A stretch of DNA of 35,195 nucleotides, taken from NCBI GenBank assembly GCA_020725425.1, contig DYFA01000023.1, positions 1-35,195 of the forward strand, given 5' to 3'. The position numbers were made by a program, and so were the translations under genes. Position 1 is the first letter of the stretch; every line of letters starts with the position of its first letter. Positions 24,993 through 33,056 of this stretch are shown piece after piece. The notes beneath the pieces are model-generated. The model searched no databases, was not told where the DNA came from, and worked only from the letters and a program-made list of their open reading frames with translations. Source of the stretch: Aneurinibacillus sp. Its GTDB lineage: Bacteria > Bacillota > UBA5301 > DYFA01.

Positions 24993-25021
24993 TTGACAAG
25001 GCAGAGGCTGCGTGCTATGGT
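24993..25021 (+). promoter_or_regulatory. Sigma-A-type promoter of the hrcA-dnaK operon
   Basis: A perfect TTGACA at 24993-24998 and TATGGT at 25016-25021 are 17 bases apart. The CIRCE begins 12 bases after the -10 hexamer, so HrcA bound there would cover the transcription start. Confidence 0.85.
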
Positions 25022-25033
25022 GGTGATAGCGGC

Positions 25034-25060
25034 TTAGCACTCTCGGCACGAGAGTGCTAA
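25034..25060. promoter_or_regulatory. CIRCE operator (HrcA binding site)
   Basis: TTAGCACTC at 25034-25042, nine bases, then GAGTGCTAA at 25052-25060 match the CIRCE consensus exactly. It is the operator of the repressor HrcA, whose gene starts 20 bases downstream. The operon is therefore autoregulated and heat-inducible. The repeat also forms a hairpin in the mRNA just before the hrcA ribosome binding site. Confidence 0.97.
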
Positions 25061-25079: not shown

Positions 25080-26111
25080 GTGACGCTCGATCCGCGGAAG
25101 CAGAAGGTGCTGCGGGCGGTGACGGTCGACTACATCTACTCGGCCGAGCCCGTGGCTTCCCAGACTATCGCCCGCAAGTACAACCTCGGCGTAAGCCCGG
25201 CGACCATCCGCAACGACATGGCTGACCTGGAGACCGAGGGCTACCTGCGGCAGCCTCACACCTCCGCGGGGCGCATCCCCTCGGACAAGGGCTACCGGTT
25301 CTACGTCGACGTGCTGATGGAGCCGGAAGAGGTGCCGGAGGCGACGGCGCGCCAGGTCCGGACGGCGCTGCAGAGCCAGACTGGCGGTCTGGAAGTGGCC
25401 TTCCGCCAGGCCTTGCGCTTTCTTTCTCTGCTCACCGAATACACGGCGATCGTCTTCGCTCCCCACCTGAAGGGGCGGCAGGTCAAAAACCTCCACCTGG
25501 TCCCGCTGGACTCGCGGAACGTCGTGGTCATGCTGGTGACGGATCCGGGCTTCGTGCAGAGCCGGGTGGTCGAGCTCGCCAGCCCGCTGGTGGAGGGTGC
25601 GGCGGAAGCGCTGTCCCGCGCCTTGACGCAGCTTTTGCGCGGCACCACCGTCGGCTGCGCCGGGCGGAGCCTCCGGGAGGACCTGGAGGAGGTGGTCAGC
25701 GACCCCGCCCTCCGGCGCCAGCTCCTGGAGATGCTGGGGGCAGGGGAGGAAGGAGCGGCCGGCGGTGGTATGCAGGCCGAAGGCGCCACCAACCTGTTCA
25801 AGCATCCGGAATTCCGCGACGTGGAGCGGATCCGCGAGTTTCTCTCCCTCCTGGAAGGGAAGGCTACCTTGGTGGAACTGCTGGCCAAAATCGCCAACGC
25901 CGGCGGCGTGACGGTGCGCATCGGCGGGGAGAACCACTCGGCGGACCTCTATCCGTACTCGCTCGTCCTGGCGCCGCTCGCTTGCCAGGGGAGGCCGGTG
26001 GGGACGGTCGGGGTGATCGGGCCGACGCGGATGGTGTACAGCCGGTCGATCAGCACTGTCCAGTTGGTGGCGGAGTGCCTGGCGGACCTGCTCGAACGCT
26101 TCGGAAGATAA
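25080..26111 (+). CDS. hrcA: Heat-inducible transcription repressor HrcA
   Basis: HrcA binds CIRCE and represses chaperone genes until heat stress; in B. subtilis its activity depends on GroEL. The 343-residue product has the N-terminal winged helix (LRAVTVDYIYSAEPVASQTI, then LGVSPATIRNDMADLETEGY) and the family motif PHTSAGRIPSDKGYRFYVD. The GAF-like dimerisation core follows, ending GENHSADLYPYSLVLAPL and GVIGPTRMVYSRSISTVQL. The GTG at 25080 is preceded by a GGAGAGGGAGGGGGG purine run. Its own CIRCE lies directly upstream. The chaperonin gene follows after 17 bases. Confidence 0.97.
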   Translation: MTLDPRKQKVLRAVTVDYIYSAEPVASQTIARKYNLGVSPATIRNDMADLETEGYLRQPHTSAGRIPSDKGYRFYVDVLMEPEEVPEATARQVRTALQSQTGGLEVAFRQALRFLSLLTEYTAIVFAPHLKGRQVKNLHLVPLDSRNVVVMLVTDPGFVQSRVVELASPLVEGAAEALSRALTQLLRGTTVGCAGRSLREDLEEVVSDPALRRQLLEMLGAGEEGAAGGGMQAEGATNLFKHPEFRDVERIREFLSLLEGKATLVELLAKIANAGGVTVRIGGENHSADLYPYSLVLAPLACQGRPVGTVGVIGPTRMVYSRSISTVQLVAECLADLLERFGR

Positions 26112-26128
26112 CGAAGGAGGAACCCTGG

Positions 26129-27721
26129 GTGCCAGTCAAGGATGTGACCCGCGGGAGCGAGGTGGACGAACGCCTCGCTGCCTTGCTTAACAACGCTCAG
26201 GCGCTGAAGGCGGTCCAGTCGGCGGTCGAGGGGACGATCGGGCCGAAGGGGCTCGACGTGATGCTGGTGGACCGCTTCGGAGGGGTCACGGTGACCAACG
26301 ACGGGGTCTCCATCCTCTCGCTGATGGAAGTGAACCACCCGGCCGCCCGCATGCTGGTCAACGCGGCGCGGGCCCAGGAGGAGGAGGTCGGCGACGGCAC
26401 CACCACCGCGGCCATCATGGCCGGCACGATCGTGGAGGAAGCGGTGGGACTGATCGGGCGGGGGGTGCCGGTGGCCCGGATCCTCGCCGGACTGCGGGCC
26501 GGCCGGGAACGTGCGCTCGCGGAGTTGCAGCGCCTGAGCCGGCCGGTGAGTGGGAGCGACGACCAGCAGCTACTGGCGGTCGCGCTGGTAGCGGGGCGGG
26601 GCCAGGCCGACGTCGCCCGGGCGGTGATCGCCGCGGTGCGTCTGGTGGGGGCTGAGGAACTGGTAAAGCCCGGCCGGAAGCTGGCCGACGCCGTGACGAG
26701 TTGCCAGGGGACCGAGTGCGAGGCCGTGGCGGGGGTCCTCCTGGAGCAGGAGCGGCTCAACCGGCTGATGCCAGAAGAGGTGCAGAAGCCGCGGATCCTC
26801 TGTCTGGACGATGCCCTCGAGCCGGAGGAGGTGGAACCCGAGGCGCTGCGCACTGAGGCCGGATTCGCCCGGCAGGCCCAGTTGCTCGAGGAATTTGAGG
26901 CCAGCCTCCGGCGGCTGGTTCAGCTCGGGGTCGGCGCGATCTTTGCCCACCGCGGGGTGGATGGCCGGGCCGAGGAGTATCTGACCGAGGCCGGGGTGCT
27001 GGTCATCCCGCGTCTCCCCTTCCGCCGGCTGGAGCGGGTGGCGGAGGCGGTCGGAGCGAGGCTGGTGAAGCGGGGCAGCCTGCGCAAGCCCCCGGAGGAG
27101 CTGAGCGCGGCGCTGGGGCGGGCGGAGGCGGTCGTGGTCCAGCCCGACCGGAAGCTGGTGCGAATTGTCGGCGGTGGTGGCCGGCCGGCGGCTTCCATCC
27201 TGGTCGGAGCAACCACCGAAGAGGTGGCGGCCGAGCGGGAACGGGAGGCGAAGGATGCGGCCGCGGCGGCTCAGGCAGCGCTCCGGGAGGGGGTCGTCCC
27301 CGGCGGCGGCGCCACCGAGCTGGCGCTGGCCCGGGTGCTGGAGGCGGAACGGGCGAAGGTCGCCGGGATGGAAGGCTACGGGCTGGACTGCCTGATCGCC
27401 GCCCTGCGCAAGCCGCTCGCCCAGATTGTGCAGAACGCGGGGTTCAACCCCCTGGAGAAGATGGCTCTGGCTGCCTCCGCCCAGGCCGAGCAGGGTTCGG
27501 CGGAGTGGGGGATCGACTGCGACTCCGGCGAGGTGGTAAACCTCGTCGAGCGGGGGATTCTCGACCCGGCGGCAGTCAAGCGCCAGGCCATCTCGACCGC
27601 GGTGGAGCTCGCCGAGGCGATCCTGCGGGTCAATCTCATCATCCGCAAGCGCGACGGGGCGGGTTCCGCTGACGGCAGCGATCAGGCGGGCGGAGGCGGC
27701 AAGAAGGAGGGGCAGCTGTGA
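26129..27721 (+). CDS. Group III (archaeal-like, thermosome-related) chaperonin
   Basis: This 530-residue ATP-dependent chaperonin belongs to the TCP-1/thermosome side of the family, not to GroEL. Diagnostic blocks are VEGTIGPKGLDVMLVDRFGG and TNDGVSILSLM near residues 35-65, and the nucleotide loop GDGTTTAAIMAG at 88-99. Later blocks are GGGATELALARVL near 391 and the end motif GILDPAAVKRQAISTAVELA, ILRVNLIIRKRD. A GroEL-type Gly-Gly-Met tail is absent. Group III chaperonins are known from a few Firmicutes such as Carboxydothermus, where they lie in the dnaK operon and fold proteins without a GroES. The GTG at 26129 has AAGGAGG eight bases upstream. The stop overlaps the grpE start. CIRCE control is inferred from operon position. 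Confidence 0.93.
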   Translation: MPVKDVTRGSEVDERLAALLNNAQALKAVQSAVEGTIGPKGLDVMLVDRFGGVTVTNDGVSILSLMEVNHPAARMLVNAARAQEEEVGDGTTTAAIMAGTIVEEAVGLIGRGVPVARILAGLRAGRERALAELQRLSRPVSGSDDQQLLAVALVAGRGQADVARAVIAAVRLVGAEELVKPGRKLADAVTSCQGTECEAVAGVLLEQERLNRLMPEEVQKPRILCLDDALEPEEVEPEALRTEAGFARQAQLLEEFEASLRRLVQLGVGAIFAHRGVDGRAEEYLTEAGVLVIPRLPFRRLERVAEAVGARLVKRGSLRKPPEELSAALGRAEAVVVQPDRKLVRIVGGGGRPAASILVGATTEEVAAEREREAKDAAAAAQAALREGVVPGGGATELALARVLEAERAKVAGMEGYGLDCLIAALRKPLAQIVQNAGFNPLEKMALAASAQAEQGSAEWGIDCDSGEVVNLVERGILDPAAVKRQAISTAVELAEAILRVNLIIRKRDGAGSADGSDQAGGGGKKEGQL

Positions 27722-28389
27722 CGGAACACCCGAAGAAGCAGGAAAGGCGGCCGGCCGGCCCCGAGGAGCCAGCTGGCGCCGGGGCGGCCGAGGCGACGAT
27801 CCCCGGACCACCGGAGGCCGCCGGACCGGCGGAGGTGGGTGACCTGAGCCAGGAGGTGGCACGGCTCGAGGCGGAAGTGGCCAGCCTCCGGGAGGAGGTG
27901 GCCCGGCTCTCCCACGAGCGGGAGGAGCTGGCCGACCTGGCCCGGCGCCTCCAGACCGATTTCGACAACTTCCGGCGGCGGACACGGGAAGAGGCGCTCG
28001 AGCTGCGCCGCACCGCCGCGGCCGACCTGATCCGCGAGCTCCTGCCGGCCCTGGACAACCTGGAGCGGGCGCTGGCCGCAGCGGAGGCTGGCGGGGAGGG
28101 CGAGGCGCTCCGCCAGGGGGTGGCCCTCACCCGGGACCAACTGTTCGCCGCTCTGGCCGGGGCGGGGCTGGAGCCGATCCGGGCGGTGGGGCAGCGGTTC
28201 GATCCGGAACTCCACGAGGCGCTGGAGCGGGTGGAGGTCCAGCCGGAAGAAGCGGCAGCCGCCGGAGGCGAGCCCGGAACCGATAGCGACTTGGAGGTCG
28301 TCGCCGAGTTCCGCCGCGGGTATCTGGTGCGCGGCAAGTTATTGCGCCCCAGTCTGGTCAAAGTTGCGTCAAGGGTACGGAGGGATTAG
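27718..28389 (+). CDS. grpE: Nucleotide exchange factor GrpE
   Basis: GrpE releases ADP from DnaK. The 223-residue product starts with a disordered Pro/Ala/Glu-rich segment (to about residue 45). A long coiled coil (VARLEAEVASLREEVARLSH) leads into LQTDFDNFRRRTREEALELR, the signature of the family. The core continues LIRELLPALDNLERALAAAE and the C-terminal beta domain has GQRFDPELHEALERVEVQ and EFRRGYLVRGKLLRPSLVKV. The GTG at 27718 overlaps the chaperonin TGA as GTGA with AAGGAGGGG upstream, so translation is coupled to the chaperonin. Confidence 0.97.
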   Translation: MTEHPKKQERRPAGPEEPAGAGAAEATIPGPPEAAGPAEVGDLSQEVARLEAEVASLREEVARLSHEREELADLARRLQTDFDNFRRRTREEALELRRTAAADLIRELLPALDNLERALAAAEAGGEGEALRQGVALTRDQLFAALAGAGLEPIRAVGQRFDPELHEALERVEVQPEEAAAAGGEPGTDSDLEVVAEFRRGYLVRGKLLRPSLVKVASRVRRD

Positions 28390-28392
28390 AGG

Positions 28393-30264
28393 ATGGGTAA
28401 GATTATCGGCATCGACCTCGGAACGACCAACTCGTGCGTGGCGGTGATGGAGGGCGGCGAGCCGGTCGTCATCCCCAACGCCGAAGGGGGGCGGACCACC
28501 CCCTCGGTGGTCACGATCATGCCCAACGGCGAGCGGGTGGTCGGCCAGGTGGCGAAGCGCCAGGCCGTCTCCAACGCCGACCGGACGATCCGCTCGATCA
28601 AGCGTCACATGGGCACCGACCACAAGGTGACCATCGACGGCAAGAGCTACACCCCGCAGGAGATCTCGGCGATGATTCTCGCCAAGCTGAAGGTGGACGC
28701 CGAGGCTTATCTGGGGGAGAAGGTGACGCAGGCCGTCATCACCGTACCCGCCTACTTCCGCGACTCCCAGCGCCAGGCGACGAAGGACGCCGGGACCATC
28801 GCGGGGCTCGAGGTCCTGCGGATCATCAACGAGCCGACCGCCGCAGCCCTCGCCTACGGCCTGGATAAGCAGGCGGAGCAGACGGTGCTCGTCTTCGACC
28901 TGGGCGGCGGGACGTTCGACGTCTCCATCCTCGAGATCGGGGAGGGCGTCTTTGAGGTCAAAGCGACCAGCGGCAACAACCGCCTGGGCGGGGACGACTT
29001 CGACGACCGGATCATCAAGTGGCTGGTCGACAACTTCAAGAGGGAGAACGGGATCGACCTTTCCCTCGACAAGATGGCGATGCAGCGGCTGAAGGAGGAA
29101 GCGGAGCGGGTCAAAATCGAGCTGTCACAGCTCCAGACGGCTGCGGTCAACCTGCCGTTCATCACCGCCGACGCCACCGGGCCGAAGCACCTGAACGCCA
29201 CCCTCACCCGGGCCAAGTTCAACGAGTTGACGGCGGACCTGGTAGAGGCTACGATGGGCCCGACCCGGCAGGCGCTGGCCGACGCCGGCCTGAAGCCGTC
29301 CGACATCGATAAGGTCATCCTGGTCGGCGGTTCGACCCGCATCCCGGCGGTGCAGGAGGCTATCCGCAACTTCATCGGGAAAGAGCCGCACAAGGGCGTC
29401 AACCCGGATGAGGTCGTGGCCGTCGGGGCGGCGATCCAGGCGGGGGTCCTGGGCGGCGAGGTCAAGGACATCGTCCTGGTCGACGTCACCCCGCTCACGC
29501 TGGGCCTGGAGACACTGGGCGGCGTGATGACCCCGCTCATCCAGCGGAACACGCGCATCCCGACCAGCGCCAAGCAGATCTTCACCACGGCGGCCGACTT
29601 CCAGACCGGCGTGGATATCCACGTCCTGCAGGGCGAGCGGACTATGGCCAAGGACAACGTCACCTTGGGCCGGTTCCACCTCGACGGCATCCCGCCGGCG
29701 CCGCGCGGAGTGCCGCAGATCGAGGTCACCTTCGACATCGACGTGAACGGAATAGTCCAGGTCAAGGCGAAAGACCTGGCGACCGGGAAGGAGAACTCGA
29801 TCACCATCACCGCCCGGAGCGGCGGCCTGACCAAGCAGGACATCGAGCGGATGGTCAAGGACGCCGAGGCTCACGCCGAGGAGGACCGGAAGCGCCGGGA
29901 GGAGGCCGAGACCCGCAACGAGGCGGACACCCTGGTCTACCAGACGAACAAGGTGCTGAAGGACTTGGAGGGCAAGTACTCGCCCGAGCTCAAGGCGAAG
30001 GTCGAGAAGGCCCGGGACGATCTCTCGCAGGCCTTGTCCTCCGGGGACCTCGAACGCATCAAGGCAGCGGTCAGTCCGCTGCGCGAGGCCCTCGGCGAGC
30101 TCTCGGCCGAGGCCTACAAGCAGGCCGGGGCTCAGGCTGGAGCTCCCGGCGGCCAGACAGGAACGGGCGGGTTCAATCCGGGCGGTTCGGCGCCGGGCGG
30201 GCCGGGCCAGCCGGGTGACGGCGGAGACGTGACCGACGCCGACTTCAAGGTCAAGGAAGGGTAA
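28393..30264 (+). CDS. dnaK: Hsp70 chaperone DnaK
   Basis: DnaK is the central ATP-driven holdase/foldase, working with DnaJ and GrpE. The 623-residue product is full length. ATPase motifs are [18 protein letters not shown] (phosphate 1), [36 protein letters not shown] (phosphate 2) and [18 protein letters not shown] (adenosine). The interdomain linker [18 protein letters not shown] is conserved. The substrate-binding domain follows, then the helical lid and a Gly/Pro-rich tail ending [12 protein letters not shown]. The ATG at 28393 lies three bases after the grpE stop with GGAGGG upstream. Confidence 0.99.
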
Positions 30265-30267
30265 CGC

Positions 30268-31431
30268 TTGGCCAAGCGCGACTACTACGAGGTGCTTGGG
30301 GTCCCCCGGAACGCCTCGGAGGAAGAGATCAAGAAGGCCTACCGCCGGTTGACGCGCAAGCTCCATCCGGACGTGAACAAGGACGACCCGCAGGCTGAAG
30401 CGAAGTTCAAGGAGTTGAACGAGGCCTACGGGGTCCTGTCCAACCCGGAGCTGCGAGCCCGCTACGACCAGCTGGGTCACGCCGGCTTCGAGCCGGGGCC
30501 CAATGGTGAGGGGGGCTTCGACTTCGGGGGCTTCGGCGGCTTCGACTTCGGCGACCTGGGGAGCATCTTCGAGGCCTTCTTCGGCGGCTCCCCCCGGGCA
30601 CGCCGCAAGGGCCCCGAGCGCGGGGCCGACCTGCGGGTGGAGCTCACGTTGACCCTGAAGGAGGTGGCGACGGGGGTCGTCCGGGAGGTGGAGGTGCAGC
30701 GCCACGAGGCCTGCGTCCGCTGCCACGGCACTGGCGCCGAGCCGGGGACCGAGGTCCGGACCTGCCCCAAGTGCGGCGGGACCGGCCAGGTGCAGCAGGT
30801 GAGGGGTGGCGGCTTCGCCCGCCTGGTGACGGTGGTCACCTGCGACCAGTGCCGCGGCGAGGGACGGGTGGTCGACCGCCCCTGCGCCGAGTGCCGGGGA
30901 AGCGGGTCGGTGGCCCGCCGGCGCCGGATCGAGGTGCGCATCCCGCCGGGGGTGGAGTCGGGCGACGGGCTGCGCCTGGCCGGGCAGGGCGAGGCGGGGC
31001 GGCGCGGCGGCCCCCCCGGCGACCTTCTGGTATTTCTCCACGTCCAGCCCCATCCCATCTTCGAGCGGCGCGGGACTGAGCTCTTCTGCGAGGTGCCGAT
31101 CAGTATCGTCGAGGCGGCCCTGGGGGCGGAAATCGAAGTGCCGACGCTGGAGGGCCAGGAGAAAGTCAGCGTGGCGCCGGGGACCCAGACCGGCACGGCC
31201 AAGGTCCTCTCCGGACGAGGCTTGCCGCACAAGCGGGGCTACGGACGGGGCGACCTGCACCTCGCCTTCCGGGTGGTGACCCCGACCCGCCTCACCGCCA
31301 AGCAGAAGGAGCTGCTCAAGGCCTTCGCCGCGGCCGGCGAGGGGAGCGAGGGCGAACAGGAGCGCTCCAGCCTCTTCGACCGCGTCCGGGACGCCTTCCG
31401 GGGCCGCTCCCCGAAGGCGGACTCCCGGTAA
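30268..31431 (+). CDS. dnaJ: Hsp40 co-chaperone DnaJ
   Basis: DnaJ delivers substrates to DnaK and stimulates its ATPase. The 387-residue product has a J domain with the essential HPD ([11 protein letters not shown], near residue 33) and a Gly/Phe-rich segment ([14 protein letters not shown]). Four CxxCxGxG zinc-binding repeats follow: [24 protein letters not shown] and CAECRGSG. The C-terminal substrate-binding domains begin [17 protein letters not shown] and end with [17 protein letters not shown]. The start is TTG at 30268, four bases after the dnaK stop, with AAGGAAGGG upstream. It is a type I (full-domain) DnaJ. Confidence 0.98.
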
Positions 31432-31434
31432 GCC

Positions 31435-32301
31435 ATGGAGTGGCTGGAGGTGGCCGTGACGACGACGGCCGAGGCGGTCGAGGCGGTGGCGGCGGAATTG
31501 GAAGCACTGGGCAGTGCGGGGGTCGTCCTCGAGGACCCGGCCCGGGTCATCGCCTACTGGCCGGCCGGGGCCGAAGCCGACGAGCGTCTCCGGCGCCTCC
31601 GCCGGTTCCTCGCTGGGCTGCCGGTGTGCGGCCTGGATCCGGGGCCAGCCCGGGTCGAGGCGGTGCGCCGGGACGACGCCGAGTGGGCGGAGAGCTGGAA
31701 GCGCTTCTATCACACGCGGAGGATCGGGCGGCTGGTCGTCCGACCGAGCTGGGAGGAGTACCAGCCGGGGCCGGAGGAGGTCGTCGTAACCCTGGACCCG
31801 GGGATGGCCTTCGGCACCGGCACCCACCCGACCACCGCCCTCTGCCTGGAGGCCTTGGAGGAGGAGCTCTCCGGCGGGGAATCCGTGGTCGACGCCGGGA
31901 CGGGCTCGGGGATCCTGGCGATCGCCGCGGCGAAGCTCGGCGCGGCGCGGGTGGTGGCCTGCGACGCGGACCCGGTGGCCTGCCAGGTGGCGGAGGAGAA
32001 CCTCGCCCGCAATGGGGTGACGGACCGGGTGGTCGTGCGCTGCGCGGACGCCGGCGAGGCGCTGCGCTCCCTCGACTGGCCTGCCGACCTCATCCTGGCG
32101 AACCTCACGGCGGAGGCCATCGTCTCCCTCGCACCGGTTTTTGCCGGGGCTGCCGCGCCGGGCGGGCGCCTCCTGGCCTCGGGGATCGTCGCCGAGCGCC
32201 GGGCGGAGGTCGTCGGGGCGCTGGCCGCAGCGGGACTTGAGGTGGATACCGTGCGGGAGCGGGAGGGCTGGGCATTGCTGAGGGCGGCGAGAGCGGAGTG
32301 A
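31435..32301 (+). CDS. prmA: Ribosomal protein L11 methyltransferase
   Basis: PrmA methylates ribosomal protein L11 using S-adenosylmethionine. The 288-residue product has an N-terminal recognition domain (to about residue 95), then RRIGRLVVRPSWEEYQPGPE, LDPGMAFGTGTHPTTALCLE (the PrmA signature) and the SAM site VVDAGTGSGILAIAAAKLGA. DADPVACQVAEENLARNGV and ADLILANLTAEAIVSLAP follow. The start is ATG 31435, four bases after the dnaJ stop. The stop overlaps the rsmE start. This is the conserved Firmicute order dnaJ-prmA-rsmE. Confidence 0.97.
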   Translation: MEWLEVAVTTTAEAVEAVAAELEALGSAGVVLEDPARVIAYWPAGAEADERLRRLRRFLAGLPVCGLDPGPARVEAVRRDDAEWAESWKRFYHTRRIGRLVVRPSWEEYQPGPEEVVVTLDPGMAFGTGTHPTTALCLEALEEELSGGESVVDAGTGSGILAIAAAKLGAARVVACDADPVACQVAEENLARNGVTDRVVVRCADAGEALRSLDWPADLILANLTAEAIVSLAPVFAGAAAPGGRLLASGIVAERRAEVVGALAAAGLEVDTVREREGWALLRAARAE

Positions 32302-33056
32302 GAGTGCCGCGCTTTTTTTGTGCCCCTGAGGATCGTTCCGGCGACTGGGTGACGCTTCCCGCCGCTGAAGCCCGCCACGCCCTGAAGGTGCTGCGCCTCG
32401 GACGGGGCGACCGGATCGCCGTCCTCGACGGCTCCGGCACGGAGTACGAGGCCGTCATTGAACAGGCCGGCATGGCAGCCGGGGGGGAGGAGACCCTCCG
32501 GGCCCGCATCGTGACGGCCCGGTCCCGGGCGACGGAGCCCTCCCTCGATCTCATCCTGCTCCAGGGCTTGCCCAAAGGGGACAGGATGGACCTGATCGTA
32601 CAGAAGGCGACCGAGCTGGGGGTCAGCCGCATCATCCCCGTCTTGACGGAGCGGAGCGTCGCGCGGCCGGCGGTGGGGAAGGGCGAGGCAAAGGCGGCCC
32701 GGTGGCAACGCGTCGCCCAGGAAGCGGCGAAGCAGGCCGGGCGGGCGGTTGTTCCCCGGGTCGAACCTCCCCAGAGCCTGGGCGCAGCCCTCCGCTCCCT
32801 GCCTGCCGGCTGCGCGCTGATCGTGCCCTGGGAGGGAGAGCGCCGCCGGACTCTGGCCGAGGCGGTGAGGCGGCTGGCCGGCGGACCGGTGGCAGTGCTC
32901 ATCGGCCCCGAAGGCGGGCTGTCGGAGGCGGAACAGGCGCAAGCCGCAGAAGCCGGGGGCCTTGCGGTCACCCTCGGTCCCCGCATCCTGCGCACTGAGA
33001 CGGCCGGCCTGGTCACACTGACCTGCCTGCTCTACGCCACCGGCAACCTGGAGTAG
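32298..33056 (+). CDS. rsmE: 16S rRNA m3U1498 methyltransferase
   Basis: RsmE is a SPOUT-family methyltransferase that modifies U1498 of 16S rRNA. The 252-residue product has an N-terminal PUA-like domain (RFFCAPEDRSGDWVTLPAAE, then ARHALKVLRLGRGDRIAVLD) and the catalytic knot with QGLPKGDRMDLIVQKATELG, RIIPVLTERSV, LIGPEGGLSEAEQAQA and LGPRILRTETAGLVTL. The GTG at 32298 overlaps the prmA stop as GTGA. It is the last gene of the heat-shock operon; it ends 14 bases before the convergent HD-GYP gene, and no clear terminator was seen. Confidence 0.96.
   Translation: MRVPRFFCAPEDRSGDWVTLPAAEARHALKVLRLGRGDRIAVLDGSGTEYEAVIEQAGMAAGGEETLRARIVTARSRATEPSLDLILLQGLPKGDRMDLIVQKATELGVSRIIPVLTERSVARPAVGKGEAKAARWQRVAQEAAKQAGRAVVPRVEPPQSLGAALRSLPAGCALIVPWEGERRRTLAEAVRRLAGGPVAVLIGPEGGLSEAEQAQAAEAGGLAVTLGPRILRTETAGLVTLTCLLYATGNLE

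Follow-up and report, generated by a model that had tools for sequence, protein, structure and literature searches.

The gene lying between hrcA and grpE in the window (the whole 35,195-nucleotide stretch of DNA analysed here) almost certainly encodes a standard Group III, i.e., bacterial thermosome-like, chaperonin and forms the second gene of a CIRCE-controlled hrcA-cpn-grpE-dnaK-dnaJ heat-shock operon. The features on which this assignment draws, namely the family, the ATPase residues, the lid, the missing nucleotide-sensing loop, the operon layout, the CIRCE and a separate CIRCE-groES-groEL locus, are all evident from the sequence. The earlier note on this DNA had stated that the class is not new, and rightly so: the chaperonin type, its operon position and its HrcA control have already been published. 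As many as 195 Group III chaperonins, of which only a single one is not encoded in a DnaK operon, were known in 2017, and both their operon position and their structure have been described (PMC5635000); HrcA regulation of chaperonin genes of both types, I and III, in Firmicutes is mentioned in a passage of PMC5904260 that cites Techtmann and Robb (2010). Given these precedents, the window gene is a rather divergent addition to the known Group III, and divergent sequence is what the window adds to this group.

The chaperonin gene within the DnaK operon

The gene order in the window is hemW-CIRCE-hrcA-cpn-grpE-dnaK-dnaJ-prmA-rsmE (Table 1), the chaperonin thus being encoded within the DnaK operon, hrcA-cpn-grpE-dnaK-dnaJ. 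A 530-residue chaperonin between hrcA and grpE had been claimed from the first reading of the DNA, and exactly such a frame was found. It is separated from hrcA by 17 bases, its ribosome-binding site, AAGGAGGAA, is located at 26114-26122, and its stop codon shares the GTGA at 27718-27721 with the start codon of grpE, so that the overlap amounts to precisely the four bases reported before. The dnaK, dnaJ, prmA and rsmE genes follow downstream of grpE with gaps of a few bases at most. The HrcA score of 296.7 bits against the TIGR00331 cut-off of 197.2 makes the identity of the repressor secure, and matches in Pfam and NCBIfam do the same for GrpE, DnaK and DnaJ.

Table 1 Features of the chaperonin operon and its control region in the window
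Feature	Position	Strand	Evidence and remarks
Predicted sigma-A-type promoter ahead of the operon, TTGACA-N17-TATGGT	24993..25021	+	Consensus scan, 10/12 matches
CIRCE operator (predicted HrcA binding site)	25034..25060	.	0 mismatches; just 3' of the promoter
hrcA, heat-inducible repressor	25080..26111	+	TIGR00331, 296.7 bits (cut-off 197.2); PF01628
Group III chaperonin gene (cpn)	26129..27721	+	GTG start, TGA stop, 530 aa; PF00118, 363 bits; Group III clade
grpE	27718..28389	+	GTG start, 4-base overlap with the chaperonin stop; PF01025, sequence reading
dnaK (Hsp70)	28393..30264	+	TIGR02350, 914.5 bits
dnaJ	30268..31431	+	TIGR02349, 427 bits
prmA (ribosomal protein L11 methyltransferase), conserved operon tail	31435..32301	+	PF06325; order kept in most relatives
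rsmE-type 16S rRNA methyltransferase, conserved operon tail	32298..33056	+	PF04452 and PF20260; order kept in most relatives

The CIRCE ahead of the operon, TTAGCACTC-N9-GAGTGCTAA at 25034-25060, is perfect, as had been claimed, and with up to three mismatches allowed about 0.01 such sites would be expected in the window by chance. The promoter consensus scan returned two sites in 8.4 kb against 0.2 expected; the second match, at 29227, is internal to dnaK and was rejected. No good promoter candidate was found between hrcA and dnaK, the hrcA-chaperonin gap included, and an Rfam search of the operon returned no RNA element. Both marks of an HrcA/CIRCE regulon are present, i.e., a CIRCE near the promoter and an HrcA encoded in the genome and scoring above its cut-off, and the CIRCE precedes hrcA in nearly all relatives. 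The predicted co-expression of Hsp70 and the chaperonin is supported, as is the operon position.

Family placement, catalytic residues and lid

A tree was built from the window protein together with 65 rows of Group III, 19 of archaeal Group II and 5 of GroEL. The window protein was placed inside Group III with a support of 96, and Group II and Group I were each separate from its clade with a support of 100 apiece. Placement within GroEL had been named as the outcome that would speak against the proposed Group III family; the tree put the protein outside the GroEL clade, and the structure match, the residues and the presence of a lid agree with the proposal. A second tree with an archaeal outgroup, constructed by a quick method, again grouped the protein with Group III (support 100). 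Within Group III, L043 is nearest to it by path. The thermosome-type blocks noticed earlier, GPKGLDVMLVDRFGG, GDGTTTAAIMAG and GILDPAAVKRQA, are all found in the protein. The scores against the NCBIfam thermosome models (285-288 bits) and the GroEL model TIGR02348 (142.8 bits, cut-off 582) are all under the cut-offs, which is expected of a third group.

The best natural PDB chain by sequence was 5x9u (414 bits), with natural Group II chains scoring 224 bits or less. This chain was outscored by 9rwq, a resurrected ancestor which the PDB labels ACII and which appears to behave like ACIII. The AlphaFold2 monomer model (pLDDT 86.5) had 5x9v and 5x9u as its top fold matches, with TM scores of 0.86/0.92. 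Both structures belong to Ch-CPN of Carboxydothermus hydrogenoformans (UniProt Q3AF10), which resembles the window protein in fold, catalytic residues, the R155 equivalent, the lid helices and the absence of a nucleotide-sensing loop, and which was likewise published as encoded in a DnaK operon. Mean identities of the window protein are 49% to Group III, 29% to Group II and 26% to GroEL proteins. Its identity to Ch-CPN is 44%, and it differs from Ch-CPN by Gln249 in place of Tyr246, by Asn211 in place of Trp208 (Asn being the usual Group III residue at this position) and by its C-terminal tail. The archaeal Group II thermosome, the nearest other group in the tree, shares the built-in lid and the independence of GroES, but its nucleotide-sensing loop is extended, its lid insert is longer and it is not encoded in a dnaK operon. 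GroEL, including that of the same genome, shares a common ancestor, the ATPase residues and the CIRCE/HrcA control, but lacks a lid, depends on GroES and is encoded elsewhere. The description of the window chaperonin as unrelated to GroEL was therefore wrong, since it is a distant GroEL homologue.

The ATPase residues N57, D58, D89, T91-T93, R157 and D376 correspond to N55, D56, D87, T89-T91, R155 and D373 of Ch-CPN, i.e., every catalytic residue of Ch-CPN named in PMC5635000 is kept, including the GDGTTT P-loop and the catalytic D58 and D376. Arg155, which contacts the gamma-phosphate in Ch-CPN, is aligned to R157; the position is Arg in 65/65 Group III rows, and Arg is not among the residues listed there for the Group II and GroEL rows. 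The window protein has no nucleotide-sensing loop insert, and the built-in lid is present, with its helices. In five other Group III chaperonins (L008, L018, L021, L031 and L083) the Asp56 position is occupied by Ala (TNAG) and Asp373 is kept.

Of the hydrophobic residues at the lid tip, L240, F246 and F256 are kept (Leu237, Phe243 and Phe253 in Ch-CPN), and Tyr246 is replaced by Q249. This tyrosine was called strictly conserved in Group III (PMC5635000); it is not strictly invariant, since 15 of the 65 other Group III rows carry another residue at the position (11 Phe, 3 Ser and 1 Gln). Gln is common only to the window protein and L034, another long-branch member. Among Group III members the window protein has the longest terminal branch, 1.33 compared with a median of 0.21, and its identity to any relative does not exceed 54% over the full alignment. 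HrcA and DnaK from the window likewise have branches about four times as long as their medians, and the acceleration is partly lineage-wide. With the longest branch and the replaced lid tyrosine, the handling of clients could differ, and the unusual divergence of the protein together with its lid Gln may be new.

The second chaperonin of the genome and the distribution of Group III genes

The window genome, 2.38 Mb in 72 contigs and with a completeness of 97%, was searched for groEL and groES, as had been recommended, and both were found on contig C50 (G000). They lie behind two overlapping CIRCE sites, one perfect and one with two mismatches, which are the only two other CIRCE-like sites in the genome. 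With groES-groEL present behind its own CIRCE, the Group III protein is an addition to GroEL and no substitute for it. On the opposite strand beside this locus, a multihaem cytochrome-like open reading frame with many CxxCH motifs was noticed (L002:3134-4468).

Among 150 sampled genomes of the phylum, the PF00118 bit scores were bimodal, and 52 genomes carried a Group III gene (341-428 bits, all the rest scoring 290 bits or less). By coordinates, 51 of these 52 genes lie directly 3' of hrcA on the same strand; the lone exception, in G146, is cut by the contig end. At least one further chaperonin gene was present in 52/52 of these genomes, Group III being the sole chaperonin in 0/52. The measured distribution is thus about one-third of the sampled phylum genomes, essentially always behind hrcA and always beside another chaperonin, and the occurrence "in a handful of Firmicutes" assumed earlier was too narrow, also in view of the count of 195 from 2017. 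A weak chaperonin match in G107 covers model positions 1-210 only and belongs to an otherwise normal CIRCE-groES-groEL locus; it is probably cut by the contig end. In G147, listed as 99% complete, HrcA is present and no chaperonin gene of any group was found, which may reflect an assembly gap.

HrcA occurs without a Group III gene in 98 of the 150 genomes. These include three class mates of the window genome with the order lepA-hemW-CIRCE-hrcA-grpE-dnaK-dnaJ (covered to dnaK only in G003), which keep HrcA and a perfect CIRCE. The HrcA proteins of these three, the window and L043 form one clade (support 100), in which the window and L043 have the Group III gene. Loss in the class mates and gain elsewhere both fit this pattern, and the conserved position would favour loss.

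It could be supposed that the window gene is itself decaying under relaxed constraint, in a lineage whose class mates have already lost it, and the longest Group III branch and the lid replacement otherwise seen only in the long-branched L034 are in line with this, as is the absence of the gene from all three class mates. We consider such decay very improbable, since the 530-codon frame is intact, the ATPase residues are all kept, the fold is confidently predicted, the ribosome-binding site and translational coupling are retained, and the HrcA and DnaK of this genome likewise sit on long branches.

In L043, the nearest HrcA relative of the window, the Group III gene is split at the conserved GPKG motif by a 1087-base insert (L043:2571-3657) with hallmarks of a group I intron: the 5' exon ends in U, the insert ends in G, and blocks resembling group I core elements are present. 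Rfam gave no intron match for the insert at E<=1. The joined exons are in frame, and with the intron hallmarks this led us to reject gene decay as the reading of L043. The insert contains a 306-aa open reading frame without a Pfam or PADLOC match. A frameshift further on, in this contig of about 0.9x coverage, may be a sequencing error.

Proposed heat-shock control and possible partners of the chaperonin

The mechanism proposed for the standard Group III chaperonin would, from transcription onward, follow that of its relatives. Heat would inactivate HrcA, as expected from what is known of this repressor, and free the CIRCE; with HrcA off the operator, hrcA-cpn-grpE-dnaK-dnaJ and groES-groEL would both be derepressed and, this happening together, all three foldases would be made together. 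As in Ch-CPN, the chaperonin subunits would form two stacked rings of eight; once ATP is bound, the 16-mer would close without the help of GroES, and it would fold clients alongside DnaK and GroEL. HrcA would then be reactivated by GroE, the feedback most likely coming from GroEL, as in B. subtilis, for which reactivation of HrcA by GroE is attributed to Mogk (1997) in the citing text of PMC8533110; modulation of HrcA by GroE was shown directly for C. jejuni (PMC8533110).

The Group III chaperonin could alternatively be a dedicated partner of DnaK, with client transfer between the two in place of prefoldin, and reside in the dnaK operon for this reason, as put forward for Ch-CPN (PMC5635000). 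Linkage to grpE-dnaK-dnaJ at most loci is consistent with this idea, which we nevertheless regard as rather unlikely: the operons L007, L009 and L010 are without grpE and dnaK and still keep the Group III gene, and the three class mates have dnaK and no Group III gene. Neither finding would be expected of an obligate pair.

In L007, L009 and L010, CIRCE-hrcA is followed by the Group III gene, with no intact grpE or dnaK before dnaJ, and dnaK is located elsewhere in the genome. In the genomes of L007 and L009, dnaK adjoins grpE, a dnaJ-like gene and an HspR-like regulator (L165 and L166), the HspR matches being to partial sequences and under the curated cut-off; no CIRCE was found at these two dnaK clusters. 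The relatives whose operon no longer contains grpE and dnaK bear on the question of whether the chaperonin works with DnaK or is an HrcA-controlled second chaperonin, and they suggest that the most stable link of the Group III gene is to CIRCE-hrcA control. The arrangement itself, in which dnaK and grpE belong to an HspR-type cluster of their own that lacks a CIRCE and the Group III gene lies behind CIRCE-hrcA, may be new.

The claim that HrcA is tuned by the chaperonin of its own operon gained no positive evidence; groES-groEL lies behind CIRCE, every sampled Group III genome has a further chaperonin, and HrcA and a perfect CIRCE persist in class mates lacking the gene. In its full form, this reading would have the Group III chaperonin take over or share the feedback, folding or reactivating HrcA and reporting the folding load. 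It could appeal to the almost constant position of the gene next to hrcA, to the three operons that keep it behind CIRCE-hrcA after grpE and dnaK are gone (two of these genomes having the latter beside an HspR-like gene without CIRCE), and to the modulation of HrcA by GroE cited above. It is nonetheless improbable, because the genome has GroES-GroEL, likewise encoded behind CIRCE, Group III is never the only chaperonin in the 52 sampled genomes, HrcA persists without the gene in 98/150, including the three class mates with a perfect CIRCE, and co-regulation fully explains the adjacency. We hold it to be equally doubtful that the chaperonin acts as an HrcA sensor alongside GroEL, with the HrcA/CIRCE unit and not DnaK as its conserved partner; such a role would explain why the gene stays behind CIRCE-hrcA where dnaK and grpE are in an HspR-type cluster.

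Downstream of the chaperonin gene, a dnaK remnant and an IS605-type TnpB gene were seen at L007:7628-9210, and a dnaK remnant is also present in L010.
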